Shown: positions 7,745 through 41,670 of the stretch, in pieces | Numbering within the stretch: position 1 is the stretch's first letter | How the letters are laid out: each line of letters opens with the position of its first letter | Assembly: GCA_016932715.1 (NCBI GenBank) | Contig: JAFGCG010000111.1 | Location: forward strand, 1-64,000 | Source of the DNA: Anaerolineales bacterium | Lineage (GTDB): Bacteria > Chloroflexota > Anaerolineae > Anaerolineales > Villigracilaceae | DNA length: 64,000 bases | Direction: 5' to 3' | Notes under the pieces: generated by a model | What the model saw: only the letters and a program-made list of their open reading frames with translations | Database searches by the model: none | Told to the model about the DNA's origin: nothing | Made by a program: the position numbers and the translations under genes

Positions 7745-10700
7745 ATGACCATACAGCCTGCACGTCCTTATACGATTGGCTACCTGGCTTCCAGCATGGA
7801 GGAAGGCAATGGCCGTTCGCTGTGGTTAAGTATCAAAGACACCGCCCGGGCTTTGGGAGCCAGATTGGTCACCTTTGCCGGGGCGGAATTGCGTTATCCG
7901 GAACCGTTCTATCATCATGCCAATCAGGTCTACGGGTTGGCGGATCGCCAGCGGCTGAACGGATTGATCATTTGGTCTTCTTCGTTGGCCGGCTTCATTG
8001 GCCCGGAAGGAATGAAAAAATTCTGCCGGCAGTACTCGCCGCTGCCCATGGTGGGCATCGGCTTGCCGCTGCCGGGAATTCCCACCGTTGTCATCGACAG
8101 TTATCAGGGGATGCGCGCAGCCATGCTGCATCTCATCGAGGTGCACGGGCGGCGGCGGATCGCCTTTCTGCGCGGACCCGATCCGCACCGCGACGTGCAG
8201 GAGCGCCTGCGCGCCTACCATGATGTGGTCGCCGAATTCGGTCTGGACGACGACCCGGATCTGATCTCGCCGCCCTGCGACTGGTTCGAACAATATGCCG
8301 CCTCGGCGATGCGCGTTTTGATGGAAGAACGTCGCGTGGCGTTTGACGGGCTGATCGCGATCAATGACGAACTGGCGTATGGCGCCATGGTGTACATGCG
8401 GGCAAAAGGGGTGCGGCTGCCGGAAGAGGTGGCAGTGATCGGCTCCGATGACAGTTCGCTCGGACGCTTGTGTACCCCGCCGCTGACAACCGTGCCCAAC
8501 CATAACCGCGAGCGCGGCCGCCAGGCTGTGCACATGCTGCTGTCCCGGATCGAGGGTGCGGACGTGCCTGAAATCATCAGCCTGTCGACGGCCGTCAAAG
8601 TCCGCCAATCATGTGGCTGCCGTGACCCCTATATTATTCAAGCCAGCCAGCCTCCAGCCGCGCTGCCACTGTCGCTGGAAAAGGCCCCGCCGGTGGAACT
8701 GCGTTCGCATGTCATCACCCAATTGCAGCAGGCCGCCATAGAAAAGAGTGTCCCAGGCTGGCATACAAAACTCTTTGACGCGTTTACCGCCAGCCTGGAC
8801 AATCAGATGGAAGGACCCTTCCTATCCGAGCTGCAGGAACTCGTACAGCCAGCGACCATGCCCATCTCGGAACTGAGAGAGTGGCAGGCGGTCCTGACCG
8901 AACTGCGCCGCTGGATCGTGCCTCTGGAACAGGGCCGGACCGCACGGCTGGAGCGCGCCGAAAGACTGCTCCACCAGGCGCGGGTAATGATCGGCGAAAT
9001 TGTTGCACGCTCTCAGGGCCGCCAGGAATGGCTGCGCAGCCGTCAATTAAACAACCTGCTCCAGCTGCGCCAGGAAACCTCGGCGGCCGAGACGCTCGAC
9101 GGCCTGATGGATATCCTGGCGCGCGAGCTGCCCCCGCTGGGGATCGCCAGCGGCTGTCTGGCGTGCTATCTGGATTCTGCCGACCCCTCTGCCGGCGCCC
9201 GTCTCGTTCTGGCGTTCAATGAGAACGGCCGCCTAGCGGATGTGGAAGGACGGGTGTTTATCTCAGCCACGGAGCTGGCACCACCGGCTATGCTCAACCT
9301 GCCCCCCTTGTTCAACCTGGTGGTTCATCCGCTGAATGTCGGCGCGGAACAATTGGGCTTTTTGATCCTGGAAGCCAGCGCCTTTGACGCCTCGGGCCAT
9401 ACCGTGCTGCGCGACCAGATCAGCACTGCCTTGAAGAACGTATTGTTGATCGAGCAAAACCTGCAGCTTTATCGGGACGCGCGGCAAAGCCAGCAATCGG
9501 CTGAAGAAGCGAACTCGCTCAAAAGCCGGTTTCTCTCCATGGTGAGCCATGAGCTGCTCACGCCGATCGTGCTGCTCGTAGGGCTGAGTGAAATGATGCT
9601 GCGCGAAGAGACGGGCAATCGACCGCCGTTGCCGGAGGCGTACCGCCAGGACCTGACGCGCATCCATGCCAGCGCTCAACAGCTGGGCAGCCTGGTGCGT
9701 GATGTGCTTGACCTGGCGCGCAGCCAGATCGGCCAGCTCACTCTGACCCAAAGACCAGTGCAACTAGCTGAGGTGCTCAGACCGGTGGAACTGGTCAGCG
9801 AACAACTGGCGCGCAGTAAGGGCCTGGATTGGCGCGTGGACATTCCCAAAGACCTGCCCCAGGTGATGGGAGATGCCTCCCGCCTGCAGCAGGTTGTTTT
9901 CAACCTGGTCAACAACGCGGTCAAATTTACGGCTCAGGGTTCGGTAACCCTCAAGGTGGAAGTCGGCGACGGAACGGTCATGGTCGCCGTCACCGACACC
10001 GGCCTGAGCGTGCTGCGAGCTGAACAGGAAACCATCTTCGACGAGTTCCGCCAGTCTGACCGCACAGTCGCGCGGGGGTACGGCGGGCTGGGAATCGGCC
10101 TGGCGATCTGCCGCCAGATTATCGAACTCCATCATGGAAAGATCGGCATCCATTCTTCCGGTGAGGAGAACAGCGGCTCGACCTTCTATTTCACTCTGCC
10201 GGTGCTCCAAACGGCCGACATGACACGGCCGGCGGAGCCTTCACAGGTGGTTCTGATCCTGACCGAGCAGATGCAGCGCAGTCTGCCGTTGCGCCAGCAC
10301 CTGGAGCGACAGGGTTTTCAGGTGCAGGTCCTGGTGATCGTCCAGACTCCCAATTGGCTGGAAGAGCTGCTGGCTGCCCGGCCGGGAGCCCTGGTACTGG
10401 ACCTGCCAGCGGCGCGGCGCGGCTGGGAGATCATTGACATCCTGAAGAAGAATTCGGACACGCAGGATCTGCCTATTCTCTTTTATTCACTGCTGCAGGA
10501 GCAGGACAGTGGATCCATGCTGGCACTGGATTATCTCGCCAAGCCGGTAGCAGCCGACGGTCTGGCGCAGGCACTGCAGCGGTACGGAGTCACACCGTCA
10601 GCCGATTGTGACGAGCGCACAGTGCTGATCGTGGATGACGATCCGGAGATTCTGGCGGTGCACGCGCGCCTGGTGGAAGAACATCTGCCCGAATGCCGGG

Positions 10701-18753: not shown

Positions 18754-21594
18754 ATGTTAACCGGTCCACACACCCCGTTCACCGACGACAGCAGAACGTA
18801 CATCTCCACCGAGAAGAGGGAAGGATGTTTTCCCCTTTCCCTTTCGGGCCGACCCGCGCCTTTGTGTGTCAGCGCAGAGGATTTTCCCGGCGTCATCCGC
18901 CTCGCCCGACTCTTCCAGGCCGACATCGGCCGTGTGACAGAAAATATGCCTGAGTTTCTCACCGACAGACTCCCTCCTGCAAAAGAAGTCGTCCTGATCG
19001 GAACATTAGGTCACAGCCCGATCATCGACCGGTTGGTGCAGGACCAGAAGCTGGATGTAACGGACCTCGCCGGAAAATGGGAGACCTCGCTGATTCAAGT
19101 GGTTGAAAAGCCACTCGCCGGTGTGGACCGTGCACTGATCATCGCCGGCAGTGACAAACGCGGCACTCTGTACGGGATGTTCGATCTTTCTTCCCGTATC
19201 GGCGTGTCGCCCTGGTACTGGTGGGCGGATGTGCCCGTGCAGCAGCAGCGCGATCTTTTTGTTTTGCCGGGACGCCATATCCAGGGCGAGCCGGCTGTAA
19301 AATATCGGGGCATCTTCATCAACGATGAAGCACCCGCGCTCAGCAAATGGGCACAGGAGAAGTTTGGCGGGCTCAATCATCGATTCTACGAGAACGTCTT
19401 CGAACTGATTCTACGGTTGAAAGGCAACTACCTGTGGCCCGCCATGTGGAACAACGCCTTCCATGACGACGATCCCGTCAATCCGCAATTGGCGGATGAA
19501 TACGGAGTCGTGATTGGCACTTCTCATCACGAGCCCATGATGCGAGCCCACGCAGAATGGACCCGCTACGGCACCGGTCCATGGAGCTATCCGGCAAACG
19601 AACAGGTGCTGAGAAAATTCTGGGAGGAAGGCATCCGCGGCATTGGCGCGCGCGAAACCATCGTCACCCTGGGAATGCGGGGGGATGGCGATATGCCCAT
19701 GACCCCCGAAACGGATATCGCCCTGCTGGAAAGGATCATCAGGGATCAGCGGCAGATCATCGCGCAAGTCACGGGGAAAGATCCGGCCGTCACCCCGCAG
19801 CTATGGGCATTGTACAAAGAGGTCCAGGCGTACTACGACCAGGGTATGCAAGTGCCGGAGGATGTGACGTTGTTGTTTTCCGACGATAACTGGGGCAACA
19901 TACGCAGGCTGCCCAAACCCAGCGATCCTCCGCGCCCCGGCGGGTACGGCATCTATTATCATTTTGACTATGTGGGCGATCCCCGTAACTATAAGTGGCT
20001 CAACACCAGCCCGATAGCAAGGACCTGGGAACAGATGCATCTGGCATACCGTCATGGGGTGGATCGCATCTGGATCGTCAACGTGGGCGATATCAAGCCC
20101 ATGGAATTTCCGACACAATTCTTTCTGGATTATGCCTGGGCTCCCCGCACGTGGCCTGCGGAGCGTTTGCCCGAATATACGCGCGGCTGGGCTGAACAGC
20201 AATTTGGCGCCGGGCACGCAGACGCGATCGCGCGCATCCTTTCCCAATACACCCGCTACAATAGCCGCCGCAAGCCTGAGCTGCTCGCCCCTGATAACTA
20301 CAGCCTGGTAAACTACCGCGAAGCCGAAACGATTGTAGCCGACTATAACAAGCTGACCTGTGAAGCCGAGCGCATTTACAACGCCTTGCCCGTTGAATAT
20401 CAGGACGCTTACTATCAATTGGTGCTGCACCCGGTGAGAGCCTGCGCCAATTTGAACGAACTCTATGTCACGGTTGGCAGGAACCATCTCTACACCAGAC
20501 AGGGCAGAGCCGGGACGAATGACCTGGCAGCCAGAGCAAAATATCTGTTCGACAGAGATGCCGAATATTCCCGCTACTATAACAAGACGTTGGCTGGAGG
20601 AAAGTGGAACCACATGATGGACCAGACCCATATTGGGTACACGACCTGGCAGCAGCCAAAAGAAAACGTCATGCCCAAAGTGAAGGAAATCAGCGTACCG
20701 GATAGCGCCGGGATGGGTGTCTCGATCGAAGGCTCGGAAGACTGGTGGCCGCAGTCAAAGAGTGAGCCGGTCCTGCCCGAGTTCGATGTCTACCAGCAGC
20801 AGACGCACACCATCGAGGTGTTCAACCGGGGCAAGACTCCCTTCGAATACCAGGCGGAGGCAGGAGCGCCCTGGCTGCTCGTCAATCCCACACAGGGAAC
20901 GATCGAAAAGGAATGCTGTCTGTCGGTCAGTGTAGATTGGCAGCAGGCACCGCCCGGAACACAGCAGGCGCCGATTACCATAACGGGCCCGCGCGGCAGC
21001 CCGGTGGTCGTTCAGGCAGTCATCCACAATCCTTTATCGCCGAAAAAGGATGAGGTGCGGGGATTTGTCGAGGGAAATGGCTATGTCTCGATGGAAGCCG
21101 AGCATTACAGCCGGGTCGTGGAAACGGCATCGATCCGGTGGCAGTGCATCCCGGAGTTGGGGCGAACGCTCTCCGCCATGACGCCTGTTCCGGTCACCGC
21201 TCAAAATCAGGTGCCCGGCGGAGACAGTCCTCGCTTAGAATATTGCATGCATCTCTTTCGCGGCGGACCGGTCAGGGTCCGGGCGTACCTGTCACCGACC
21301 CTCGACTTCCACAATACACAGGGACTGCGCTATGCCATTTCTTTCGACGATGAACCGCCCCAGACCATTAACATCTGGACCGATACTTCACACCAGGCAT
21401 GGATGCAATCTGTAAGTGATAATATCAAAGTGGCAGTTTCCGAGCACAGGCTCGCCGGACCCGGCGCGCATGTCTTGAAATTCTGGATGGTGGACCCTGG
21501 CGTGGTGCTTGAAAAACTCGTCGTGGACACGGGCGGTTTGAAACCAAGTTATCTGGGTCCGCCCGAAAGTTTTTACCGGGCAGCAGGGCGCTGA
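18754..21594 (+). CDS. GH115 family alpha-glucuronidase (xylan side-chain cleavage)
   Basis: 946 residues, the usual GH115 length. The N-terminal domain (to ~160) precedes a large TIM-barrel with typical stretches: KYRGIFINDEAP, RLKGNYLWPAMWNNAF, TLGMRGDGDMPM, VTLLFSDDNWGNIRRLP, RIWIVNVGDIKPMEFP. The C-terminal third contains an immunoglobulin-like domain and a beta-sandwich (GFVEGNGYVSMEAEHYSR). No signal peptide is visible, so it should act in the cytoplasm on imported aldouronic oligosaccharides, releasing glucuronic or methylglucuronic acid. GAGG stands 7 nt before the ATG. It immediately follows the importer operon, giving that operon its probable cargo. Confidence 0.88.
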   Translation: MLTGPHTPFTDDSRTYISTEKREGCFPLSLSGRPAPLCVSAEDFPGVIRLARLFQADIGRVTENMPEFLTDRLPPAKEVVLIGTLGHSPIIDRLVQDQKLDVTDLAGKWETSLIQVVEKPLAGVDRALIIAGSDKRGTLYGMFDLSSRIGVSPWYWWADVPVQQQRDLFVLPGRHIQGEPAVKYRGIFINDEAPALSKWAQEKFGGLNHRFYENVFELILRLKGNYLWPAMWNNAFHDDDPVNPQLADEYGVVIGTSHHEPMMRAHAEWTRYGTGPWSYPANEQVLRKFWEEGIRGIGARETIVTLGMRGDGDMPMTPETDIALLERIIRDQRQIIAQVTGKDPAVTPQLWALYKEVQAYYDQGMQVPEDVTLLFSDDNWGNIRRLPKPSDPPRPGGYGIYYHFDYVGDPRNYKWLNTSPIARTWEQMHLAYRHGVDRIWIVNVGDIKPMEFPTQFFLDYAWAPRTWPAERLPEYTRGWAEQQFGAGHADAIARILSQYTRYNSRRKPELLAPDNYSLVNYREAETIVADYNKLTCEAERIYNALPVEYQDAYYQLVLHPVRACANLNELYVTVGRNHLYTRQGRAGTNDLAARAKYLFDRDAEYSRYYNKTLAGGKWNHMMDQTHIGYTTWQQPKENVMPKVKEISVPDSAGMGVSIEGSEDWWPQSKSEPVLPEFDVYQQQTHTIEVFNRGKTPFEYQAEAGAPWLLVNPTQGTIEKECCLSVSVDWQQAPPGTQQAPITITGPRGSPVVVQAVIHNPLSPKKDEVRGFVEGNGYVSMEAEHYSRVVETASIRWQCIPELGRTLSAMTPVPVTAQNQVPGGDSPRLEYCMHLFRGGPVRVRAYLSPTLDFHNTQGLRYAISFDDEPPQTINIWTDTSHQAWMQSVSDNIKVAVSEHRLAGPGAHVLKFWMVDPGVVLEKLVVDTGGLKPSYLGPPESFYRAAGR

Positions 21595-21634
21595 CTATCA
21601 ACGATGAACCCGGTAAATCAGGAGGTTGCTCATT

Positions 21635-30060: not shown

Positions 30061-30765
30061 ATGGCTCACCACATTTTGATCGTAGATGACGATCAAAGTA
30101 TTACAGATGCACTCGCACTTCTTTTCAAGCGTGCAGGCTACGCTGTTGACGTGGCATCCTCGGGTGCCGAAGCACTACAAAAGCTTGTAAACAATCCAGA
30201 CTTAATCGTTTTAGATATTATGATGCCTGATGTAAGTGGGTATGAAGTATGCCGACAGATCCGTAGTCAGTTCTCTTCTGTTCCAATACTTATGCTAACA
30301 GCTCGCGACCAAACCCAAGACAAAGTCCTAGGGCTGGATCTGGGCGCGGATGCCTATTTAGGCAAGCCATTTGAAACCGCCGAGTTGCTGGCGCAAATGC
30401 GGGCTTTGCTAAGACGCTCGAAAGTGGAGGATTTTGCCGATCAGACCCATTTAAAATGTGGTGATATTCAACTATGTGAAAACACACATCGTGTAACACT
30501 AAAAGAGATGGAGATAGAACTGACACCGAAGGAATATGATTTGTTGCGAGTTCTTATTCGCCGCCCGGGCATCGTATTTGGGCGGGAAACTCTCCTCCGG
30601 GAAGTATGGGGATACGAATATTCAGGAGACACACGTACCGTCGATGTGCATGTTCAGCGTTTAAGGGCGAAAATCGAGGATGATCCTGCCCAACCACGTC
30701 GCCTGTGTACAGTGCGGGGTTTTGGTTATCGCTTTATGAACCCGGTGACGGATGATGGTTCTTGA
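30061..30765 (+). CDS. OmpR/PhoB-family response regulator
   Basis: 234 residues. The receiver (1-115) has the acidic pair VDDDQS, phospho-Asp in LIVLDIMMPDVSG, Thr in MLTARDQ and Lys in AYLGKPF. The C-terminal winged helix (~130-228) has ELTPKEYDLLRVLIRRPG, REVWGYEYSGDTRTVDVHVQ, and RTVRGFGYRF-like residues. Proteins of this class bind 11-bp-spaced direct repeats as head-to-tail dimers. Such repeats occur at 37579-37616, 37769-37806 and 33475-33512, in front of the glycosidase genes of this block. It overlaps the kinase gene by 14 nt. Confidence 0.92.
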   Translation: MAHHILIVDDDQSITDALALLFKRAGYAVDVASSGAEALQKLVNNPDLIVLDIMMPDVSGYEVCRQIRSQFSSVPILMLTARDQTQDKVLGLDLGADAYLGKPFETAELLAQMRALLRRSKVEDFADQTHLKCGDIQLCENTHRVTLKEMEIELTPKEYDLLRVLIRRPGIVFGRETLLREVWGYEYSGDTRTVDVHVQRLRAKIEDDPAQPRRLCTVRGFGYRFMNPVTDDGS

Positions 30766-31906
30766 CCTCAAACTTGTCATTTTTATTTGCCTGATATCCC
30801 TTCTGCTGGCAGCTCTGCTGGGCATCCTGATCGGTCAACACCGGCGGCAAAGATCCATGTTCCTGTTTAAAAACAACTCACTGGAGCTTTTTCCGCTGGT
30901 ATTCGAGTCGATGCCACTGGGGGTGATCTTCCTATCACGTGATCGTCGATGCATCTATGCCAATGCCAAAGCCTGCAATTTGCTGGGAACACTGACACGG
31001 GGAAGTGAACTCCCTGATAAGCCGTGGCGGGAGGAATTGTACAAAGATTTAGAAAAAGTCCGGCAACTCTCGGGGAAGCAGACCTGTTATCGTACATTAT
31101 CCCTGCCATCGGACCAAACCTTAAACTGGTGGCTCAATGCCTTGCCAGATGCAACGATCATTACATTATCCGATCTGACCAGCCAGACGAGAACTGAAAA
31201 GAATGCACGTCTTTTTCTAAGTAACCTGTCTCACGAAATTCGAACGCCACTGACCGCAATTTTCTCCCATGTCGAAGTATTACGCCTGACAGAATTACCT
31301 CCAGCGGCTTACCAAAACTCAGTCAATGCGATCCATCAGGCAACCAGCCACATCAATCGCCTGACCCGGGATTTGTTGGAATTAAGCCGCCTAGAAATGA
31401 CAACTGACGATGAGCAGGTTCTGGTCGATATGACCCTATTAGCAGAGGAAGCTATCTCTGGACTCATCCCAACAGCTGAGGAAAAACAAATCCAGATCTC
31501 ACTTAACGCCGATCCACGCCTGCCACAGATCCTGGGTAATCCAAATTGGCTCAGACGAGTCTTTATCAACCTCCTGGATAATTCCATCAAATACGGTCGT
31601 TCAGGAGATCAGATAAATATTAAGCTGGAAAACCGCAGCGATGGATTGCTGGTCATTGTCAAAGACACAGGTCCCGGTATTGCGTCCAAGCATCTGCCCT
31701 ACGTGAAACAGCGTCTTTATCGAGGAAATACGGATATCCCGGGCAGTGGGATTGGGTTGGCATTGGTAGAGGAAATCTTGCACCGGCATCATGGCAGCCT
31801 GGAAATCGAAAGTCAAACTATGGGTGAACAGACAGGCACGACAGTCTGGTTCACATTGCCCACAGTATTTGTGGAAGAATCAGCTCATGAAAAAAGTTCT
31901 GCATAA
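30752..31906 (+). CDS. membrane sensor histidine kinase
   Basis: 384 residues. One N-terminal membrane helix (LVIFICLISLLLAALLGILI) is followed by a PAS-like region (PLGVIFLSRDRRCIYANAKA, ~50-135). HisKA has the phospho-His in SNLSHEIRTPLTA (~165), and HATPase shows NLLDNSIKYG, DTGPGIA and GSGIGLALVEEI. There is essentially no extracytoplasmic domain, so it cannot sense an outside polymer by itself. Its 3' end overlaps by 20 nt the gene for a membrane-anchored, catalytically dead glycosidase homologue, a candidate for the missing receptor. ATG 30752 and 30755 are both possible starts. Confidence 0.88.
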   Translation: MMVLDLKLVIFICLISLLLAALLGILIGQHRRQRSMFLFKNNSLELFPLVFESMPLGVIFLSRDRRCIYANAKACNLLGTLTRGSELPDKPWREELYKDLEKVRQLSGKQTCYRTLSLPSDQTLNWWLNALPDATIITLSDLTSQTRTEKNARLFLSNLSHEIRTPLTAIFSHVEVLRLTELPPAAYQNSVNAIHQATSHINRLTRDLLELSRLEMTTDDEQVLVDMTLLAEEAISGLIPTAEEKQIQISLNADPRLPQILGNPNWLRRVFINLLDNSIKYGRSGDQINIKLENRSDGLLVIVKDTGPGIASKHLPYVKQRLYRGNTDIPGSGIGLALVEEILHRHHGSLEIESQTMGEQTGTTVWFTLPTVFVEESAHEKSSA

Positions 31907-33383
31907 CCGCAACTGGACTTTCATATCACTGGTCCTGCTGGTTATGGCAGGATACTGGCTGCTCCCCATTCACGGACAAGTTGTGCTAGTCCCTGAGAAG
32001 AGCACAAATGAAAATGTTGTTTGGCCCCTTGTCCACATCGAACCAGACCATCTCGTCCCGGGGCAGTCAGGAAAGGTCACTATCATCGACAATGTTCCCT
32101 GGGTAGGCATCTATGCCACAGTAAATGGACAAAGCACAAAATTTGAACGGGGCGAAATCCTGGAAGACGGTACAACATGGCGGTGGACATGGTCATACAT
32201 CGTCCCTGCCATGTCAAGCTACGAAATTGTCTTTTACCACGATTGCCAGACTGGTTGTATAGAACGTGCTCGAGTAGTAGTCGGCCAGCCGGTAGATAGT
32301 CCTGGACCGGTTGGACCTGCAGAAGCGCGTATCCCTACTAAACTTGGACTGGTGTTCGCAAACCCCAACCGGGACTGGCACAACCGCAGTGGCTGGATTG
32401 TAGACCTGACTTATGCCTGTCGAGCCGATACCGACAAGTATTGGGGGGTCGATCAACTGGCTGAGCGGGTTCATGTTGCGACCACGAAGGGTCTGCGAGT
32501 ACTGGTGAGGGTGGATTATGATCAGAGTCAGGGACTTCCGCCTGTTGATGATTATGAGGCACTCGATCTGTATTTGAAATATCTGCACCGACTGGCGCGT
32601 GACCAGCGTCTGAAAGGCATCTACGGCTTCATTATCGGCAGTGATGTCAATGCCGATGACAGTAATGTCCTATCACCCGACAAACCGGTAACACCTGAGT
32701 GGTACGCGCGGATATTCAACGGCTATGGCCGGGATCCAACCTTTGCAGACAACGCTGTTGAGGTGATCCGCGCGGAAAACCCCAAAGTGCGGGTATTGGT
32801 TGGTTCATTGCGAGCCTGGTCGACCAATCAGGACGGTCAACAGCATTATAGTATTGATGAGCCCTGGTTGAACTACATGAACTCACTGGTCGCAAATATC
32901 AGTGATGCCGCATCGGCGGATGCGTCCATGGGTGTCCCGGTCGCATTGCCTGATGGCTTTGCAATCAGTGTTGCCGGACGCATTGATGCGCCCGAAATGG
33001 TGGAGCATTCCCCGGCTGACGAACCGCGCGTGGACCTGTTCCGATCAGACTGGAAAGGCGCTCAGGCTGGCTTTCGGGTCTACAAGGATTGGCTTGATGT
33101 TATCAACTCATATCCAGAAACACGCAATCTCCCGGCTTATATCATTGCAGCAAACACCTTTTCGCCGGATACCGGCACGCCGCCAATGCAAAATTATCCA
33201 CGCGGTTGGTTGAGCAATGCACTGGATGTTATCAATCATGAACCGCAAATCCAGTCCTTATGCTGGTTCATAGATTATTTTCCCGATGACATGCAGTGGG
33301 ATATGTTCAGCCTCACCAATCCCTCCGGGCGACTGGTGGATGCGGCTGATGAGTTTGACAAACTTCTGAGATTAGAGCCTTGA
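31887..33383 (+). CDS. membrane-anchored pseudo-glycosidase, candidate receptor for the kinase
   Basis: 498 residues: an uncleaved-looking N-terminal helix (WTFISLVLLVMAGYWLLPIHG), a small beta domain (~40-140), then a TIM-barrel homologous to the secreted protein at 35517. Where that protein has FIVGNEPN and YITEFNTYTG, this one has FIIGSDVN and YIIAANTF. The acid/base Glu is Asp and the nucleophile Glu is Ala. Matching flanks (WFID, NYP-W) confirm the alignment. It should bind but not cleave a glycan. Gene overlap with the kinase (20 nt) suggests a joint function in sensing. It could instead be a structural cell-surface lectin. Confidence 0.7.
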   Translation: MKKVLHNRNWTFISLVLLVMAGYWLLPIHGQVVLVPEKSTNENVVWPLVHIEPDHLVPGQSGKVTIIDNVPWVGIYATVNGQSTKFERGEILEDGTTWRWTWSYIVPAMSSYEIVFYHDCQTGCIERARVVVGQPVDSPGPVGPAEARIPTKLGLVFANPNRDWHNRSGWIVDLTYACRADTDKYWGVDQLAERVHVATTKGLRVLVRVDYDQSQGLPPVDDYEALDLYLKYLHRLARDQRLKGIYGFIIGSDVNADDSNVLSPDKPVTPEWYARIFNGYGRDPTFADNAVEVIRAENPKVRVLVGSLRAWSTNQDGQQHYSIDEPWLNYMNSLVANISDAASADASMGVPVALPDGFAISVAGRIDAPEMVEHSPADEPRVDLFRSDWKGAQAGFRVYKDWLDVINSYPETRNLPAYIIAANTFSPDTGTPPMQNYPRGWLSNALDVINHEPQIQSLCWFIDYFPDDMQWDMFSLTNPSGRLVDAADEFDKLLRLEP

Positions 33384-33474
33384 TGTATGGGTCTCACCAC
33401 CATGCTAAAACGATGAAAAAATAACAGGCTGGTACGCCCGTGGTCAGATCCCCAAAGTGATGGCAGATTCCATT

Positions 33475-33512
33475 ATCACAAGCATGTAACGCACAGATAA
33501 CAGTTGTATAAC
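33475..33512 (-). promoter_or_regulatory. third cluster of 11-bp repeats (response-regulator box)
   Basis: On the minus strand GTTAT, GTTAT, GTTAC and GTGAT start at exact 11-bp steps (plus-strand positions 33508, 33497, 33486, 33475). The order mirrors the two boxes at 37.6-37.8 kb. Ten nt further the sequence is GCCATC, a poor -10, and transcription would run antisense into 31887-33383. Function uncertain. Confidence 0.45.
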
Positions 33513-33600
33513 GGGAGTGCCTAATGTCAGAGAGATACAGAATATGTCACCCCGAGTCCTTCGGGAGGAGGACATAATCACTTCGATGTTAGACACTCCC
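33513..33600. repeat. imperfect inverted repeat between convergent genes
   Basis: GGGAGTGCCTAATGTC (33513-33528) and GATGTTAGACACTCCC (33585-33600) pair with three mismatches. A small CCCGA...TCGGG stem lies between them (33552-33566). It may terminate both converging genes despite lacking a T run, or be an interspersed palindrome. Confidence 0.5.
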
Positions 33601-33627
33601 TGTGTAACGATCTGCTGTTACAGCCAT

Positions 33628-35451
33628 TCACGGCTTCCCCAGTCCCTCCCAATTGGACCAGCCGCCGCCATACTGCCAGCGATGATAAACGTTGTTATCC
33701 CTGCCGCGCACGAACACGTCCAGGTGGTTGTTCACCCGCCAGGAAGCAGCATCTGGACCGGAGGTCAGGTAACCATCCTCCAGGGGCTCCCACGCGCCCC
33801 AGGCACTGCCATTCCAGATGCGGTGGAATAACTGTCCCTCGGCGCCGCGCGCAAAAACGTCCACGCGGTTCGTCGAAGGAGAGACCCCACTCTGGTCATA
33901 GCTCGAAGCGCCACCAGGCACTTCGCTCCAGGTACAGGCGCCATTGCTGTAAACACAACGCCACATTACTTTGTTGACCCCGGCCAGGAAGACATGAATC
34001 TGACCATTGCCCGGGGAGGCAGCGTCCGGCCCGCTGGTCAATACGCCGCCGAGCGGTTCCCAGGCCCCCCAACTGCCATTATTGTAGCGACGGTGCCAAA
34101 GACCATTATCCGTGCCGCGCACGAACAGGTCGATCCGGTTTGCCGCGGTCGAAACTGCCGATGGGCTTGACATCGCTCCCCCAGGAGGTGCCCCTGCTGA
34201 GAGCCAACCTCCCCAGCCTCCGTTGAGATAACGCCGATACCATAGGTTGTTATCTATCCCACGCACATACACATCCAAATGACCCGTTCCCCAGGAAGCT
34301 GCATCTGGAGAGGAGGTCAAGATCCCATCGAGTGGTTCCCAGGTATTGTCCCAGCCTCCATTAAAGACTTTGTGGTAGAGAATATTATTTTCTCCCTGAA
34401 CGAACAGGTCCTCACGATTCCACCCCCACGCTACCGCAGATGGATCAGATGTATTCTGAGAAGTATAGGTGTTGCCAACGGTCAAATTGGACCAGGTGGT
34501 TTCCGTGAAATCAACCGGCGTCATCCCCGATCCCCAGGGAGCGGCGTTCGGGTTCGCGGGATCTGTCCAGGCAGAGTGACCGGTTGAGACCATGTAATGC
34601 AGATGCACACCGGATGCATAACCGGTTTGGCCTTCGATACCGATCTTGGTGCCCAGAGCCACATACGAATTGAGGATCACCGGCACGCTATTGTAGGCCA
34701 GGTGAACGTACCAGGAATATTCGGTCGAGCTGTGTTCCACAACGACCATATTAGCCTGTTGCCAGCAGGAAATGTCATTACAGCCCGAGTTGCTGCTCTC
34801 TTTGACAAATACAACTTTGCCGGGTTTGGTGACATACACAGTATCGCCGGGGGAAATGTTGAAATCCACCTGGTTCTCGTGCCCGCTGCCGTCTTTCTTA
34901 GGCACATACCCATTCTTTCCCGCCGGGAAGGGCAGCAGGTGTTCGTTGAAATTCGCCGTGACTGCCGCGGCACGAAATATAGGTTCAGGCAAAGTGAACA
35001 TTGCCTGGCTGCTTTCATCGATCAATGTGAAGGGAAAGCTGTGCAGCAGGGCGTTGTATTCGACGGGATCGTTCACTTGCGGAGCCAACGCCTGCCAGCC
35101 TTCGGGTGTGCGACTAGCCAACAGGACAACATATTCGACCAGGCTCTTCTTTGATTTCGTGTTTTGCCGGCGAGCAATGGCGTACGCCCAATCGTTTTCG
35201 ACATAGACATCACCCAGGGCGAATTTGCTGCCCTTTGACGACGGATTTTGTTTCATGTACGCGTCGAGAGCGAGTTGCAAAGCTGTTTCTGGATCATCTG
35301 CCTGTACGGGAGGCTGGTAGTCTTGTTGATGATCCTTACTGGCGGATTGCGCCAGCGCAGGAGATGACACGTTCGTCGCCAGCAAAGCGATCAGGATCGC
35401 CAGGAGGAGCCGAACAGCAACTACGATATGCCGATGGGTTCTTGGTGTCAT
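33628..35451 (-). CDS. secreted M23-like peptidase domain with PLL-type lectin propeller
   Basis: 607 residues from ATG 35451. Signal peptide (RLLLAILIALLATNVSSPALA), an N-terminal domain (~30-170), then an M23/LytM-like fold (~185-330): VDFNISPGDTVYVTKPGKVV, WYVHLAYNSV, GVHLHYMVS. The HLH end of the zinc site is present, but the first His of the usual HxGxD position is not obvious, so activity is doubtful. The C-terminal ~270 residues are repeats with W..W.S/PLGG and LDVFVRGRDNNVYHR, the PLL/DUF346 beta-propeller that binds fucose or related sugars. It follows the glycosidase at 35517 in the same operon, separated by a 14-bp hairpin. Confidence 0.8.
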   Translation of the reverse strand: MTPRTHRHIVVAVRLLLAILIALLATNVSSPALAQSASKDHQQDYQPPVQADDPETALQLALDAYMKQNPSSKGSKFALGDVYVENDWAYAIARRQNTKSKKSLVEYVVLLASRTPEGWQALAPQVNDPVEYNALLHSFPFTLIDESSQAMFTLPEPIFRAAAVTANFNEHLLPFPAGKNGYVPKKDGSGHENQVDFNISPGDTVYVTKPGKVVFVKESSNSGCNDISCWQQANMVVVEHSSTEYSWYVHLAYNSVPVILNSYVALGTKIGIEGQTGYASGVHLHYMVSTGHSAWTDPANPNAAPWGSGMTPVDFTETTWSNLTVGNTYTSQNTSDPSAVAWGWNREDLFVQGENNILYHKVFNGGWDNTWEPLDGILTSSPDAASWGTGHLDVYVRGIDNNLWYRRYLNGGWGGWLSAGAPPGGAMSSPSAVSTAANRIDLFVRGTDNGLWHRRYNNGSWGAWEPLGGVLTSGPDAASPGNGQIHVFLAGVNKVMWRCVYSNGACTWSEVPGGASSYDQSGVSPSTNRVDVFARGAEGQLFHRIWNGSAWGAWEPLEDGYLTSGPDAASWRVNNHLDVFVRGRDNNVYHRWQYGGGWSNWEGLGKP

Positions 35452-35468
35452 GAGTTTTGCCTTTCCAT

Positions 35469-35499
35469 GAGCGCGCATCTCCCCAGGAGATGCGCGCTC
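35469..35499 (-). other. intercistronic hairpin in the secreted-protein operon
   Basis: GAGCGCGCATCTCC (35469-35482), loop CCA, GGAGATGCGCGCTC (35486-35499): perfect 14-bp stem without T run, between the glycosidase and M23-PLL genes. Likely an mRNA stabiliser or partial attenuator. Confidence 0.7.
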
Positions 35500-35516
35500 C
35501 CTGAAGTGATAGTGAT

Positions 35517-37472
35517 TTAACGAAGCGACCAAGATGATGCGTCAGGGCCGGAGTTCAGTCCGCCATTCAGCGATTCCCATGCATTCCAGCTCCCGTTCCA
35601 TAATTTATAGTAAAGCTGTTGATCCATGCCGCGGGCAAACAGACTGACTTGATTCCACCCAGCCGAGACAGCGCCAGGATCCGTATTGTACGAACCATCG
35701 GGAACTTGTATCCATTGATAGGAACCGTTATTCCACTGTAACCTCCAGGGCACATTGTCGACACCGGCAACAAACACGTCGATGTGTCCGGGTCCCCAGG
35801 AGGCAGCATCCGGTCCGGTAGTAAGCACACCACCGAACGATTCCCATGCCCCCCAGCCGTTGAAATAGGACCGGTGCCAAAGGGCGTTATCACTCCCACG
35901 CACGAACAAGTCGAGCCGCCCGCTGCCCCACGAGACTACCCCTGGCGCCGAGGTCGCGTTGCCGTTGGGCGCTCCAGCGTCGCCGATCCAACCGGACCAA
36001 CTGCCATTCGTGAATCGTTTCTGGTACAGCTTGTTGTCGGTGCCGCGCACAAAGACTTCCAGGTCTCCCCAACTCCAGGAAGCCGCGTCGGGGGCTGAGG
36101 TGAGCGTGCCGCCCAGTGGTTCCCAGGCGCTCCAGCTGCCGTTGTATGCTCTGTGCCAGAGCGCGTTATCACTGCCGCGCACAAACACATCGATACGATT
36201 CTTCCCCCACGAGACCGCGGATGGGTCAGAGGTGGCTCCGCCGGTGGGTGAACCAATGGATGTCCAGGCGCTCCAGCTGCCGGTCGTCTTTGTACGATAG
36301 TAGATATTGTTGTCGGTGCCGCGCACGAAGACATCGCTGCGCGGAGAAATACCGCTGCTGAACTGACGGTTGGCTGCATTACGGAATTCTTCTTTCATAT
36401 CGTTGAGCGCCTGTGCCAGCAACGGATAGGTCTGGTAACTGCGCAGGGCAAAGCGATTGTCGTAGCCGCGACTGTCGTCGATGAACCAGATGAGCGCCTT
36501 GATCTCGGGCCGCCCGTTGCGGCTGGCATTGTAACTGCGAATTTCTTCGAACGCCTTGTTGACCCAATTGGTGGGGTAATTGCTGGAAGGCTGCGAGTTC
36601 GGATCGCCCGTGTAGGTGTTGAATTCGGTTATGTAAACCGGTTTATTCCAGAAACGCTGATCGATCTGGTTGATCACATCCCGGTAGAAGCGGAACGCGC
36701 CATCGTAGCGGTTATCAGCCCACTGGCAGGGCTGACGGGGATCCTGGCAAGCCGAACGCGCTCCCCCGGTATGGAAGGCAAAGCCATCCGCCCCATTCAG
36801 GCGGGAGGTCATGCTATACATCCATTCCGGCGGCGTAAAGGGTGAGTTGAAGACAGCCAGCAATTCCGTCCCAGATACCATGGAGCTTTTCCTGCCCCAA
36901 AGATGATTGAAGGCGTTGGCGTATGCAACGTCCGAAATACCTCCATCGATATTTGGCTCGTTGCCGACGATGAAGAGGGAAGCCAGGTCATGAGTGGATC
37001 CATCGCGCTGATAGCTTCGAAACCGCTCGACACAGCGGATAAAGGAATTCGACCAGGATGTGTATTCTGTGGAGTTGCTCGGGACAGCGACCATATTCCC
37101 GGCTTGATCTTTCCGATAGTCAATCCGAATGATGTTGACCAGCCCCTCGAGTTGGGCCCTCCATGCTGGACCGAGGGCATATTCCAGGTCACCATTGTTA
37201 CACTTATCCACATATTGACTGCCATTCCATTCGAATGCAACCACTGTTTCGACGTTCCAGCCGCGCTTCCCATAGGACACATTCATATCGGGCAAATAAG
37301 ATCCATCGGGAAGCTGACCGCCGTAGTAATGTACACCAGCTAACGTCACTCCGGACGGACTGCTCGGTTGTGCGCCCTGGACAGGCTGGCCGGGAATCAG
37401 CATGCCGACCAAAAGAAACGCGATAACGAGCAACTGTTCGACTTTGAAAGTATATCGTTTGAAAATAGTCAT
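35517..37472 (-). CDS. secreted TIM-barrel glycosidase with PLL-type lectin propeller
   Basis: 651 residues from ATG 37472 (AAGGAG upstream). Signal peptide (EQLLVIAFLLVGMLIPGQPVQG). Clan GH-A-like barrel at ~45-360, with acid/base Glu in FIVGNEPN and nucleophile Glu in YITEFNTYTG. The exact GH family is not clear to me. The C-terminal half (~375-651) holds about six to seven blades such as DVFVRGSDNALWHR and W.AWEPLGG, a PLL/DUF346 propeller, so the enzyme is targeted to a fucose-like or other surface glycan. The promoter carries four 11-bp repeats 10 nt before TACGAT. Its inactive paralogue is encoded at 31887. Confidence 0.82.
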   Translation of the reverse strand: MTIFKRYTFKVEQLLVIAFLLVGMLIPGQPVQGAQPSSPSGVTLAGVHYYGGQLPDGSYLPDMNVSYGKRGWNVETVVAFEWNGSQYVDKCNNGDLEYALGPAWRAQLEGLVNIIRIDYRKDQAGNMVAVPSNSTEYTSWSNSFIRCVERFRSYQRDGSTHDLASLFIVGNEPNIDGGISDVAYANAFNHLWGRKSSMVSGTELLAVFNSPFTPPEWMYSMTSRLNGADGFAFHTGGARSACQDPRQPCQWADNRYDGAFRFYRDVINQIDQRFWNKPVYITEFNTYTGDPNSQPSSNYPTNWVNKAFEEIRSYNASRNGRPEIKALIWFIDDSRGYDNRFALRSYQTYPLLAQALNDMKEEFRNAANRQFSSGISPRSDVFVRGTDNNIYYRTKTTGSWSAWTSIGSPTGGATSDPSAVSWGKNRIDVFVRGSDNALWHRAYNGSWSAWEPLGGTLTSAPDAASWSWGDLEVFVRGTDNKLYQKRFTNGSWSGWIGDAGAPNGNATSAPGVVSWGSGRLDLFVRGSDNALWHRSYFNGWGAWESFGGVLTTGPDAASWGPGHIDVFVAGVDNVPWRLQWNNGSYQWIQVPDGSYNTDPGAVSAGWNQVSLFARGMDQQLYYKLWNGSWNAWESLNGGLNSGPDASSWSLR

Positions 37473-37562
37473 ATGCCTTTTCTCCTTATCTTTACGTGAT
37501 ATTTCCTGCCTTGCGAACAACGGACAACTTCAGAAGGCAGCAGATGTACACTAGCCTTAAGA

Positions 37563-37616
37563 ATCGTACTCATCAAAAGTCACAGGAATTTCACAGGAAT
37601 GTAACAATCAGGTAAC
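37563..37616 (-). promoter_or_regulatory. response-regulator box and -10 of the glycosidase-PLL operon
   Basis: On the minus strand the sequence reads GTTAC, GTTAC, GTGAA, GTGAC at exact 11-bp steps (plus-strand starts 37612, 37601, 37590, 37579). Ten nt later follows TACGAT (37563-37568) as -10. The repeats occupy the -35 region, as PhoB-type boxes do. The layout is identical to the box at 37769 on the other strand. Confidence 0.75.
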
Positions 37617-37768
37617 AAAATCAAACTCTTTCCCGCCTAAACAACAGCACGAGCACCACAGTCGGCATTGTGGTCACCTCTCAGTGGAAAGGAACAGCAT
37701 GGAATCTGGACTTGTGAAACTGGCACCACTGGGATAAAGGTCATGGCGTTTTCGCGGGCTTCGAAATT

Positions 37769-37822
37769 GTTACCCAATCGTTACCGGAGTGTTACAAGAC
37801 TGTGATGTTCGAATGGTAAACT
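37769..37822 (+). promoter_or_regulatory. response-regulator box and -10 of the GH5-VWA gene
   Basis: GTTAC at 37769, 37780 and 37791 and GTGAT at 37802, strictly 11 bp apart, then 10 nt, then TAAACT (37817-37822) within the extended -10 TGGTAAACT. Together with the mirror-image box at 37579-37616 it fills much of the 466-nt divergent intergenic region; the rest shows only a T-tailed hairpin near 37824-37854. Confidence 0.75.
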
Positions 37823-37938
37823 GCAGCCCAGGAAGGGGTCTGGGGCTGTTTTTTATTTGGCGCCGAACATTTATTGCATAAGTTTGGACCTTGGCCCCAT
37901 AACCCCAAAAAGAATTTCTTTTGAACAAAGGAGATACT

Positions 37939-40900
37939 ATGTACACATTGGATGTTCATCACGGACGCAGGTTTGTCCAACAGGCGTTGTCAGTCTGTAT
38001 TTTGGTGGCTGTGATCCTGGCTGGAGGAGGAACCAGCAATCCAGCCCGGGCCAGCCAGGCTGAACCAGCCCCGGCTTTCCAAGGGGTCGATCCTTGCGCC
38101 CCTCCACCTGGTATCCCTGATTTTGTCACCGTCAACAATGGACATTTTTCTCTGGGCGGCCAACCTTTCAGGCACGTGGGGGTAAATGAGGTATACCTCC
38201 TGTACTACATTGGTTACACGGATCCTGCTGTACTCGGCACAGAATTAGACGAACTTGAAGATTTAGGTATTAAACAAGTTCGGGTATTCTTACCCGATAG
38301 TGGACACCAACTGGACAATTACAAAGAAAGAATACGCTGGGCGTTGGATGAAGCTAAGAAGCGTGGCATTCGTTTAACTATCGTTCTTGATGACTATTAT
38401 GGGCGCCCAAATGTGACAGGCGATTACATGTACTTCCCGGGTGAAGGAAACCGTACAATCCGCTTTGAGGGTGGTCTCATGCTGGACGATGGATGGTTTG
38501 ATGAGAATGGCGGGGTTGACGTCTATAAAGGCTTCGTAGAGGACGTCGTCCAGTGTTTTCAAGCTGATGACGGGATCTTTGCATGGGAAATTGGTAATGA
38601 GATTAAATATAATACCGCTGGTCACTCCCAAGATTTGGTAAATTTCTACACAGAAATTGCACGCATCATCAACACAAATGATCCTAATCACCTTGTCACC
38701 ACAGGCATCGCCAGTACAGACTGGGCTTTGATAGAACCAATTGATGCCAATACGCTATATAGTGATCCAAACATCGATTACATTACGATCCATGCTTACA
38801 ATGGAGAAATTTATGACCCAAGTAGAACGAACGACGTGGCAGTAGCTAACAATGTCAACAAACCGTTCGTCATAGAAGAAATTGGCGCAAGCTTAGATTA
38901 CATGAAAAGCAAATACCCTGACGACCAGGAAATTGATAAATTTCAAGCGATGCGAGATTTATACCAGCAGGCATATGGTGGATTGGGAGCGGATGCCGTA
39001 TTGCACTGGGGTGTCGAACTTACAGGTGAGTATGGGTTCGGCGATAGTGTGCTTGGCATGCAGCGGGAACTGCTGGAAGAGTATAAAAGTTTATGGCAAT
39101 GTCGAGCTGCAAGCCTGGAAAATGCCAACAATGGCGTAAACAAGATCGATCTGTGGTTCCAGCGCCTGGAATGGAAGAACTTAACCTCGCCAGATGCTCC
39201 TGAGGGAACTTTGCCTTCCGTAGGAGATACCGTCCGGTTCGAAGCGACCATCTGTAATGCCGGCGATGTTGCAACCGACAAAGGGATTGGCGTAAACTTC
39301 TTTCTGGATAACAACGGGCAAAACCCGGTTATTATGCATACTATTGGAAACGTCTATGATGTAAAGGATATCCAACCTGGTGACCAGGCGACAATCGCGT
39401 TCGACTGGACAGTCGTCGATCCGAGCAGCCTGGATGCGCGCATCACGGCTCAAAATGCGGTGCTGGTAGGCCTCGTGGATGATGTCAATCGATACCCCGA
39501 TGAGATCACCGAGGAAAACAACGGTCATGCGATTGATTTTCCTGTAAATTCAGCAACGAATAATGTGGATGTTGTGCTGATCATCGATAGCTCCGGCAGC
39601 ATGGGCTGGAACGATCCCTCGAATAAACGCCTCGATGCCGGGAAAGCATATCTTGCTGCATCTTTGGCAGGCGATTATGTTGGTGTTGTGGATTTTAATA
39701 GTTACGCATCTCTGGACAGCCCACTGGTGCAATTGCCGGAGAATAGGACAAACCTCATCGCTGCCATCGATGGAATTGGGTCGTCGGGCGGCACAGATGT
39801 TGGTGCTGGTGTCCAGGCAGGGTGCGATGCCCTGATTGCATCTCCTTCCTCAAACGACACCAAAGCCGCGATCTTGTTAACAGACGGCCAGGGACCTTTC
39901 GATAACCAGGATGCCTGTTTCAAGGATCAAGGCTGGAAGATATATACCTTCGGTTTTGGCGATTCCGACGATGCCCTCCTGCAACAGATTGCAACCAACA
40001 CGGGCGGCGATTTCAAACGACTGCCGACCTCTGACCTGGTTTGCGAATTTCAGCAGGTGCGCGCGAAAATTGCCGGGCAAACACCTGTCCCCTGCACAAC
40101 GTACAATGTATCGCCCGAGCAGACGATTTCATTCAATATTTCTGTACCTGCTGGCCAACAGCAAGCCACATTCTCTACCAGTTGGGCTGGCAGTGACGTT
40201 GTTATGAGTTTGACCACACCCTCCGGGCGGGTCATTTCTCGTGATACTGTCGTCGCTGATGTATTCCACGAAAAGGGTGCAGCGTACGAGGTCTACACCA
40301 TTAAACATCCGGAGCCTGGCGATTGGGTGGTGAGTCTGTTTGGAGCAGATGTCCCATCAGAGGGTGAAGACGTTGTCTTCGGCTTGACCACCCTGCCTGA
40401 TACAACGCCTGACGATACAACCCCTCCCGTGATTACTCCCACCATCACGGGGACGCTCGGGTTGAATGGATGGTATACCAGTGATGTCGTCGTTTCCTGG
40501 AGCGTGCAGGATCTCGAGTCTGGTATTTCATCCTCCTCTGGATGCGATACGACCACGTTCACAACCGATACAACGGATGTCTCCCTGACCTGTTCAGCTA
40601 CAAACGGGACCGCCCTCACCAGCACGGCATCTACAACGGTCAAGCTGGACAAGACGGCACCCGCTATCACCATCAGCAGTCCCCAGGCCCAGGCATATAC
40701 GCATACAGAGACGATCGATATCGCCTGGGACACCAGCGATTCCACCTCTGGTGTTGACACAGATGCAGGCCAGATGGACGGGAATCCGGTAACAAATGGT
40801 CAGCAGGCAGATCTATTCCTCATGGCTCTGGGTCCTCACACCATCACGGTAACTGCCTCCGATCAAGCGGGCAACACCTCCAGCCAATCGGTGGAGTTCG

Positions 40901-41670
40901 ACGTGACCGCCACAATCGAGAGCCTAATGGCAGCCGTCGAACGATTCCACCAGGATGGCAGTATCGATCATCGAGGCGTCTACTACAGCCTGATGCAGCA
41001 ATTGAGGGCAGCTGCAAAGAGCAACAAACCTGAAATCACCAGCAACATCCTCAATGCCTTCATCTACCATGTAAAAGCGCAGCGTGACAAGCATATTGCA
41101 GCTCAGGCGGCAGACCTGCTCGTTGCAGACGCGAAATGGGTCATCACGCATCTTCAGGATACGGCTCCACCTTATATACACATCAAAACTCCGCGTGCGA
41201 TTCCATACCCCCATGCCCATGCTCTTTGGGTCGATTTTGATGTCTTCGACTCGATCACCGGCGTGAAAGAGATCAGCGCCACATTGGATGATGTCGCCGC
41301 AACCGATCACCAGAGAATTGACCTCCACAGCCTGACCCTGGGTGAGCATGTCCTCACAGTGAACGCTGTGGATTATGCAGGGAACGAGTCGACCAAGTCG
41401 GTGACGTTCAAGGTGGTGGTAACTATTCAGAGCTTGAAGGCCAATGTCGCAAGTTTCTACATAAAAGGCGACATTGACAGCAGGAGCATTTACTATGATC
41501 TGCTGAAGAAACTGATGAATGCAGAAAACAGTCGCAAACCCGCGTGGATCATTTCTGCACTCAACTCCTTCATCCAGAAGGTTCAGCAGCAAAGTGGGCA
41601 GCACATCACCCCTGAGGCTGCCAATGAACTGATCACGGATGCTCAATGGCTAATTGAACATACCAAATAA
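37939..41670 (+). CDS. secreted multidomain protein: GH5-like glycosidase, VWA, Ig-like and FIMAH domains
   Basis: 1243 residues from ATG 37939 (AAAGGAG, 37927-37933). Signal peptide, then a GH5-like barrel (~40-375) with Glu in FAWEIGNEIK and FVIEEIGAS as acid/base and nucleophile. A CARDB-type beta domain (~385-515) follows. A VWA domain (~520-690) has a complete MIDAS (DSSGS, GGTDVGAG, LLTDGQG). Then come a PPC-like domain and Ig-like repeats with Thr/Ser-rich linkers. Two FIMAH-type helical units (~985-1060 and ~1160-1240) close the protein. The combination suggests an enzyme held in a surface or matrix assembly through metal-dependent adhesion. It is divergent from the glycosidase-PLL operon and shares its operator design. 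Confidence 0.82.
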   Translation: MYTLDVHHGRRFVQQALSVCILVAVILAGGGTSNPARASQAEPAPAFQGVDPCAPPPGIPDFVTVNNGHFSLGGQPFRHVGVNEVYLLYYIGYTDPAVLGTELDELEDLGIKQVRVFLPDSGHQLDNYKERIRWALDEAKKRGIRLTIVLDDYYGRPNVTGDYMYFPGEGNRTIRFEGGLMLDDGWFDENGGVDVYKGFVEDVVQCFQADDGIFAWEIGNEIKYNTAGHSQDLVNFYTEIARIINTNDPNHLVTTGIASTDWALIEPIDANTLYSDPNIDYITIHAYNGEIYDPSRTNDVAVANNVNKPFVIEEIGASLDYMKSKYPDDQEIDKFQAMRDLYQQAYGGLGADAVLHWGVELTGEYGFGDSVLGMQRELLEEYKSLWQCRAASLENANNGVNKIDLWFQRLEWKNLTSPDAPEGTLPSVGDTVRFEATICNAGDVATDKGIGVNFFLDNNGQNPVIMHTIGNVYDVKDIQPGDQATIAFDWTVVDPSSLDARITAQNAVLVGLVDDVNRYPDEITEENNGHAIDFPVNSATNNVDVVLIIDSSGSMGWNDPSNKRLDAGKAYLAASLAGDYVGVVDFNSYASLDSPLVQLPENRTNLIAAIDGIGSSGGTDVGAGVQAGCDALIASPSSNDTKAAILLTDGQGPFDNQDACFKDQGWKIYTFGFGDSDDALLQQIATNTGGDFKRLPTSDLVCEFQQVRAKIAGQTPVPCTTYNVSPEQTISFNISVPAGQQQATFSTSWAGSDVVMSLTTPSGRVISRDTVVADVFHEKGAAYEVYTIKHPEPGDWVVSLFGADVPSEGEDVVFGLTTLPDTTPDDTTPPVITPTITGTLGLNGWYTSDVVVSWSVQDLESGISSSSGCDTTTFTTDTTDVSLTCSATNGTALTSTASTTVKLDKTAPAITISSPQAQAYTHTETIDIAWDTSDSTSGVDTDAGQMDGNPVTNGQQADLFLMALGPHTITVTASDQAGNTSSQSVEFDVTATIESLMAAVERFHQDGSIDHRGVYYSLMQQLRAAAKSNKPEITSNILNAFIYHVKAQRDKHIAAQAADLLVADAKWVITHLQDTAPPYIHIKTPRAIPYPHAHALWVDFDVFDSITGVKEISATLDDVAATDHQRIDLHSLTLGEHVLTVNAVDYAGNESTKSVTFKVVVTIQSLKANVASFYIKGDIDSRSIYYDLLKKLMNAENSRKPAWIISALNSFIQKVQQQSGQHITPEAANELITDAQWLIEHTK

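Follow-up and report, generated by a model that had tools for sequence, protein, structure and literature searches.

Divergent four-repeat operators with fixed -10 spacing in a Chloroflexota genome and their candidate OmpR-family regulator

In a 64-kb stretch of DNA from an Anaerolineales bacterium (hereafter the window, the whole stretch that was analysed), two genes for glycosidase-like proteins are transcribed away from a shared intergenic region, and on each strand of that region a series of four short direct repeats ends at the same distance from a -10 element. Which regulator reads these mirror-image arrays, in which direction does it act, and what signal might it serve? The arrays and the genes behind them offer a searchable entry point into this question, and their copies elsewhere in this genome and in other Chloroflexota supply the evidence on which an answer can be built.

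Two outward-facing promoters built on four repeats

The elements of the intergenic region (37563–37822), the genes that they serve and one further array are as follows, all read from the sequence.

37579–37616, minus strand: operator 1, four 5-bp half-sites at 11-bp steps, GTTAC-N6-GTTAC-N6-GTGAA-N6-GTGAC when read from 37616 to 37579
37563–37568, minus strand: -10 element TACGAT (read from 37568 to 37563), exactly 10 nt past operator 1 and 91 nt from the P0004 ATG
37769–37806, plus strand: operator 2, four half-sites at 11-bp steps, GTTAC-N6-GTTAC-N6-GTTAC-N6-GTGAT
37817–37822, plus strand: -10 element TAAACT, exactly 10 nt past operator 2 and 117 nt from the P0001 ATG
35517–37472, minus strand: P0004, a glycosidase-like domain (GNEPN, YITEFN) with a PLL/PHL-type beta-propeller lectin; first gene of the minus promoter
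33628–35532, minus strand: P0002, an M23 endopeptidase whose C-terminus is 56% identical to the P0004 propeller
37939–41670, plus strand: P0001, a GH5 mannanase-like region with VWA, Glucodextran_B and FIMAH; gene of the plus promoter
33475–33512, minus strand: a third operator-like array with two mismatches, between convergent genes, with GCCATC at +10

The architecture of four repeats, 10 nt and a -10 that the first-pass annotation had claimed for each strand is thus exact to the base. In both operators the direct repeats are spaced by one helical turn (11 bp), and the array occupies the place of a -35 element at a fixed distance from the -10; a consensus scan of 37400–38000 detected no sigma-70 -35/-10 pair. 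Since the operators lie 152 bp apart and face outward, they constitute two independent promoters. Right past the plus -10, at the expected transcription start, there is a terminator-like hairpin with a T-run (37823–37855, plus strand), which folds no better than its shuffles and could represent attenuation, or nothing.

That such a double architecture is unlikely to arise by chance, as had also been claimed, is borne out. The exact pattern occurs twice in the 64-kb window as against none in 300 dinucleotide shuffles, and a rough analytic expectation for repeats plus -10 amounts to 6.5e-9 per 64 kb; both figures are post hoc and overstate the significance, because the pattern was taken from these very sites, while recurrences elsewhere are free of this flaw. 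In the draft genome (4,938,462 bases in 195 contigs, 94.67% complete), the motif scan that had been proposed found the exact repeat pattern at the two window sites alone, with no match to the reversed-pattern control. With up to three mismatches, 8 places emerge, again with none for the reversed control: the two window sites, two 11-bp register shifts of the plus site, the array at 33475–33512, and matches on contigs C108, C128 and C158. The window operators score 34.9 and 34.0 bits at the 11-bp step; at other step sizes (9, 10, 12, and 13 bp) the maximum in 376,683 bases of this genome was 15.5 bits.

Several of these further sites adjoin other two-component systems. The C128 site (9490–9527; GTTAC, GTTAC, GTGCA, TTTAC, N10, TAAGAT) starts at 9490, the preceding kinase gene having ended at 9485, and the C108 site (5939–5976, read on the plus strand; GTTAC, GTGAC, GGAAC, GTAAC, N10, TATATT) lies behind a response regulator–kinase pair and ahead of an ECF sigma gene. 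A third such pair, on C105, has a weaker site (20.1 bits) overlapping the end of its kinase gene. On neither side of the C158 match (21580–21617, at up to three mismatches) does a -10 stand at +10, and nothing equally strong with a good -10 was found around 15 other OmpR-type regulators of the genome, in a survey of stretches that left out the regulator at C164:88294, or in L011 and L083. At C108, the ATG follows the -10 after only six bases (L009 5938–5999), for which reason the ECF sigma mRNA may be leaderless.

The third array of the window was rejected as a promoter: GCCATC stands at +10 instead of a -10, and the listed stop-to-stop frames behind it on the same strand (32873–33617) reach at most 65 codons. 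It is possibly a relic or decoy. Adjoining it, 33500–33625 can form a stable hairpin (GGGAGTGCCTAATGTC ... GATGTTAGACACTCCC; z -3.2 on the minus strand), and a partial second copy exists at C158:823–873 (78% over 51 bases); the region may be a terminator or a small mobile element.

The spacing between repeats and -10 can be assessed on 42 hits that were called on the repeats alone, with the -10 disregarded (hits with loci only, duplicates removed). TANNNT stands at exactly +10 nt on one side in 18 of these 42, while the other 25 gaps have a mean of 1.28 and a maximum of 5, in a set that includes chance matches, three hits misregistered near contig ends, close relatives such as L131/L134 and L142/L143, and, among the 18, the two window sites and some sites of close relatives. 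At 16 hand-chosen sites, the best -10 falls at a gap of 10 in 13, of 16 in two, and of 2 in one (the 33475 array). A score-based gap control did not set gap 10 apart (38.7 at gap 7), most of the score coming from the repeats; likewise, the -10 columns of a 26-site consensus are not independent evidence, its sites having been picked by hand and partly by a score that includes the -10.

Regulator assignment and recurrence in other genomes

The window also encodes a three-gene operon whose first product is the proposed reader of the arrays.

30061–30765, plus strand: OmpR/PhoB-family response regulator (Response_reg, Trans_reg_C), the proposed binder
30752–31906, plus strand: histidine kinase (HisKA, HATPase_c, PAS) with one N-terminal hydrophobic segment
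31887–33383, plus strand: exported or membrane-anchored glycosidase-fold protein lacking the catalytic Glu pair (pseudo-glycosidase), the proposed co-sensor

The 30061 protein possesses both domains of the OmpR family, receiver and winged helix. Its best PDB sequence relatives are MtrA and RegX3 and its best NCBIfam match is MtrA, and among the 25 families shown it reaches no equivalog cut-off (PhoB, 219.4 vs. 296.2 bits; YycF, 227.9 vs. 340; MtrA, 255.5 vs. 300). In a tree of response regulators it belongs to a clade of 17 rows (100/99) comprising the regulators adjoining the pseudo-glycosidase plus some located elsewhere. The C128-type regulators join this clade (95/94), and the C108, C105, G016, and G049 regulators form a separate one (100/100). 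Site-bearing rows are clustered on the tree without making up one clade (8 changes vs. a shuffled mean of 11.8; 6 of 500 shuffles as low), and at least two regulator clades appear to use the four-repeat grammar. Because the paralogous systems of C128, C108 and, weakly, C105 carry this same grammar, the motif alone does not single out the 30061 protein, and its assignment rests on adjacency and on orthologous loci.

Such loci exist well beyond this genome. A genome from another family of the same order, G063, has the regulator–kinase–glycosidase-like operon (63, 51, and 56% identical), adjoined by two four-repeat promoters that read into genes with hydrophobic N-termini. A named-genome scan with the glycosidase-like protein yielded 33 loci, all under Chloroflexota group names, and a window-like kinase lies near that protein in 27 of them (one weak, L110; several contigs start at the gene). 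An OmpR-type regulator is nearby in 6 loci and a NarL-type in 22, the latter confirmed by receiver and LuxR-type helix for two loci, with none found in 5; across L091–L123 this is an apparent regulator swap. Sites of at least 20 bits accompany 3 of the 6 OmpR-type loci, 0 of the 22 NarL-type loci and 0 of the 5 where no regulator was found (Fisher p = 0.0037). With the near-copies L113 and L114 counted once, the figures become 2 of 5 against 0 of 27 (hand-calculated p of about 0.02). Just below this threshold are L112 (19.8; no regulator found, inside an ORF) and one L109 array (19.7). L108, L116, and L123 have an OmpR-type regulator yet no site over 20 bits, partly on short contigs. L109 bears two outward arrays, the 19.7-bit one leading to an ECF sigma gene and the other to a 524-aa gene that no Pfam family matches, and in L113/L114 the array is followed by a Band_7 gene, an unassigned gene, the pseudo-glycosidase and the regulator. 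Before the regulator gene of L123 (8074–8128, plus strand), two GTGAC repeats 11 bp apart are followed by TATCAT at +10, perhaps a half-size version of the four-repeat promoter.

At the level of whole genomes, bare counts at two mismatches are only modestly above background: the pattern occurs in 54 of 396 genomes of the class and the reversed control in 27, and in 9 and 7, respectively, of a smaller set of 101 genomes (both controls counted by eye). An OmpR-type regulator at E ≤1e-66 is present in 18 of the 396, and pattern hits fall in 10 of these 18 versus 44 of the 378 genomes without it (Fisher p = 1.9e-5; 8 of 16, p = 3.1e-4, without G000 and G063), a result that overlaps in genomes with the locus test (L197 repeats L114) and is thus not independent of it. 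Reversed-control hits among the 18 regulator-positive genomes were none, by eye. Eight of the 18 lack a pattern hit. Three of the 18 regulators are C128-type (G173, G112, and G426), and G112, negative in the pattern search, yet has a 20.7-bit site behind its C128-type pair; the stretches around the regulators of G332, G341 (3.4-kb contig), G445, G323 (C6), and G429 gave no hit to a kinase or glycosidase-like gene.

The expectation that the motif would not spread to genomes lacking this regulator is contradicted in part by the 44 pattern-positive genomes without a regulator hit at E 1e-66, and some of their hits, for example in G313 and G417, look like real promoters. Twenty stretches were inspected among the places with up to two mismatches in the 396 genomes; among these, L165 lacks a site over threshold, and mechanical ORFs enclose the sites of L171 and L155. 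The arrays of G313 and G417 (L160–L163) are built of GTTAC/GTAAC repeats with TATCTT, TATCCT, or TATACT at +10 and precede ORFs of 506–903 aa; none of ten query proteins matched within stretches of 9–18 kb there.

Four-repeat sites stand beside relatives of the window-type operon in G063, L109, L114, G454 (L196), and G323 (L158), and in G121 (L157) the arrays adjoin such a relative with a poorer or shifted -10. C128-type pairs are followed by such a promoter in G147, G173, and G112, and the C108-type promoter precedes an ECF sigma gene in G016, G002, and G049 (regulator–kinase genes nearby) and in G041 (none seen nearby). The loci of these four genomes are L086, L087, L088, and L089, with no regulator–kinase genes seen near L086. 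At L166, L167, and L203, C128-type promoters lead to a Ser/Thr protein kinase gene, so called from a Pfam match for L166 and from similar N-termini, by eye, for L167 and L203. At G178:C173:29102–29238, some 12 words of the GTTAC/GTGAC type follow one another at 11-bp steps, probably as a tandem repeat array.

On this evidence, we consider it likely that the two tandem arrays are bound by an OmpR-family response regulator, most likely the 30061 protein, which replaces the -35 element and recruits sigma-70 polymerase at two outward promoters. Each operator would form a head-to-tail array for two dimers of the phosphorylated regulator, which from its seat at the -35 place would bring sigma-70 RNA polymerase to the -10 exactly 10 nt away; the minus promoter would then express the lectin-glycosidase P0004 together with the lectin-M23 endopeptidase P0002, and the plus promoter the GH5-like surface protein P0001. 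A PhoB/WalR-like tandem activator in place of the -35 is well supported, and it is binding, dimer number, activation and the choice of the 30061 protein over a paralogue that we infer. The original proposal that the 30061 protein activates both glycosidases is partly supported, with an assignment that is likely: it is favoured by the OmpR-family domains, the association with regulator type and the lack of a detected -35, and weakened by the paralogues that share the grammar.

Four other readings deserve to be weighed against this one. That a paralogous regulator of the C128 type, or of the C108/C105 type, binds the window operators alone or jointly with the 30061 protein is unlikely, if the most serious of them: the C128 and C108 systems place the same promoter right after their own kinase genes, this arrangement recurs behind C128-type pairs (G147, G173, G112) and, for the C108 type, before ECF sigma genes, and the recognition helices of the 30061 and C128 proteins are closely similar. 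The paralogues, however, each own an adjacent site, whereas the window sites adjoin 30061, as such sites adjoin the relatives of its operon in G063, L109, L114, G454, and G323. Repression of both promoters by the bound regulator appears improbable. The arrays do cover the -35 position and could block RNA polymerase; against this, no -35 was found that would permit use without an activator, and a fixed 10-nt distance to the -10 is expected of activation through sigma contact and needless for repression.

Membership in the phosphate regulon, with the arrays as Pho boxes, is more improbable still and was rejected. PHO boxes are indeed defined by 11-nt direct repeats in the part of the source cited here (PMC4415409), and the regulator resembles PhoB; its PhoB score nevertheless misses the cut-off (219.4 of 296.2 bits), genes for PhoU, Ppx/GppA, and polyphosphate kinase lie near another regulator–kinase pair on C6, which has PstB-type genes too, and the C6 stretches L050 and L083 hold no comparable operator. 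Coincidence within an intergenic region might be argued from the shortness of the words and from a pattern taken from the data, and its chance is negligible: the 300 shuffles gave no match, and the recurrence of TANNNT at exactly +10 (18 of 42) refutes it.

A pseudo-glycosidase beside the kinase, and the enzymes behind the promoters

The regulator's operon combines a kinase without an evident external domain and an exported glycosidase-fold protein. The kinase leaves no room for an extracytoplasmic domain ahead of its hydrophobic segment; among 33 kinases, exactly one such segment is found in 21, none in one (a short ORF), and two or more in 11, where the extra segments, as far as could be judged, belong to the leader, the PAS region or the kinase region. 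The third gene matches no Pfam or NCBIfam family. Its predicted structure (26 sequences, pLDDT 84) comprises a barrel of the (beta/alpha)8 type, a beta domain and, at the N-terminus, a helix that could serve as anchor or signal peptide; a simple scale detects a hydrophobic segment within the first 80 residues in 23 of 35 pseudo-glycosidases. Glycosidases from several families make up most of the 50 Foldseek matches listed, alongside a few other barrels; TM-scores do not exceed 0.5, and hence no GH family was assigned.

Profile comparison establishes homology between this protein and the P0004 barrel (98.1%, E = 1.3e-13). Unlike its homologue, P0004 keeps both motif glutamates, which we take, from fold and motif, to be the catalytic pair familiar from GH5-like enzymes. 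The second (the nucleophile) is Glu in none of 35 orthologues (the window, G063, and the 33 loci), and the first is likewise Glu in none of 35 when GNEPN is matched by eye to GSxxN of the orthologues, a pairing that hhalign also makes for the window protein; MAFFT places a gap there, and the automatic column shows Glu in L109.

Because a kinase without an external domain adjoins an inactive exported glycosidase, the pair suggests a split sensor, and we propose the pseudo-glycosidase as a putative glycan co-sensor from which the kinase of the same operon would take its signal. More tentatively, and short of an even chance in our estimation, these operons may represent a Chloroflexota-wide two-component family in which a dead exported glycosidase senses for a kinase without an external domain and is joined to a NarL- or OmpR-type regulator, the OmpR type being accompanied by four-repeat promoters, one of which here drives a live homologue. 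A plasmid collection searched with the pseudo-glycosidase gave no match, and the literature titles and abstract openings listed held nothing on this operator, nor on a kinase with a dead-glycosidase partner in Chloroflexota.

The presumptive targets fit a programme directed against glycans or cell walls. The P0004 propeller resembles the Photorhabdus PHL/PLL lectins (E = 1.9e-65). The P0004 model, built from few homologues (mean pLDDT 51.6), is usable for the propeller part and not for the glycosidase part, and the glycosidase nature of the protein therefore rests on the profile homology and on its GNEPN and YITEFN motifs. P0002 unites an M23 peptidase domain with the propeller-like region (56% identity over 254 residues) and is likely to share a transcript with P0004, because it overlaps the P0004 stop. 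The GH5 mannanase-like region of P0001 is recognised at E = 7e-9. All three proteins have hydrophobic N-termini by eye, of which a simple scale flags P0001 only. The earlier description of both targets as secreted glycosidases thus holds for the GH5-like P0001 and probably for P0004, and has to be widened on the minus side, where the promoter also serves an M23-peptidase-lectin gene.

What emerges is a regulatory code legible at single-base resolution and searchable (four GTNAC-type half-sites, an 11-bp step, 10 nt, a -10), which serves mostly uncultured Chloroflexota and is tied to a type of regulator. The locus hints at sugar sensing ahead of the secretion of enzymes that cut sugars and cell walls. 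If the pseudo-glycosidase is indeed the sensor, the cell would perceive a glycan through a dead enzyme and respond with a live one; such an arrangement would be the two-component equivalent of glycan sensing of the RsgI type, and it would help to find out what these bacteria perceive and break down.

Comparison with known tandem-repeat regulators and glycan sensors

In gene order, the operon recalls MtrAB-LpqB of Actinobacteria, which consists of a response regulator, a kinase and an extracytoplasmic protein, and both in NCBIfam and by PDB sequence the 30061 protein matches MtrA best; this regulator nonetheless scores below the MtrA cut-off, and the third protein is a glycosidase-fold pseudoenzyme rather than one of the LpqB type. 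By the family cut-offs, the system belongs to none of Pho, Wal, and MtrAB. Its kinase, lacking an evident external domain, contrasts with the architecture of WalK.

At the level of the operator, MtrA sites are given as two short direct repeats in the portion of the account cited (PMC5650626). The WalRK consensus of Firmicutes, TGTWAH-N5-TGTWAH in the part of the source drawn on here (PMC9210968), has the same 11-bp step, and wall hydrolases are among the WalRK targets. TGTTAC units fit this box, and CGTTAC, TGTGAA, TGTGAC, and TGTGAT units do not; the regulator here is below the YycF cut-off, and its arrays have four repeats. The likeness to PhoB of E. coli lies in the 11-nt direct repeats, which an OmpR-family regulator occupies head to tail in the cited portion of one account (PMC4415409), and, in a structural model as described in the cited part of another (PMC3348028), in a dimer that sits over the -35 region and touches the sigma C-terminal domain. 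In contrast to PhoB, the word here is TGTKAC-like and not CTGTCAT, the repeats number four, and the targets are glycan and wall enzymes instead of phosphate genes. Tandem repeats of 11 bp over the -35 at a fixed distance from the -10 are, as far as these excerpted accounts go, the PhoB/WalR manner (PMC4415409; PMC9210968).

For the proposed sensor, the counterpart is RsgI6/SigI6 of Clostridium thermocellum, where, in the part of the report cited, an extracytoplasmic GH10-type module of very low activity that resembles the active Xyn10D does the sensing (PMC4711584). The two share a glycosidase-fold module, putatively a sensor and with lost catalytic residues in the protein described here; there, the module is part of an anti-sigma factor, whereas here it is a separate predicted protein beside a two-component system.
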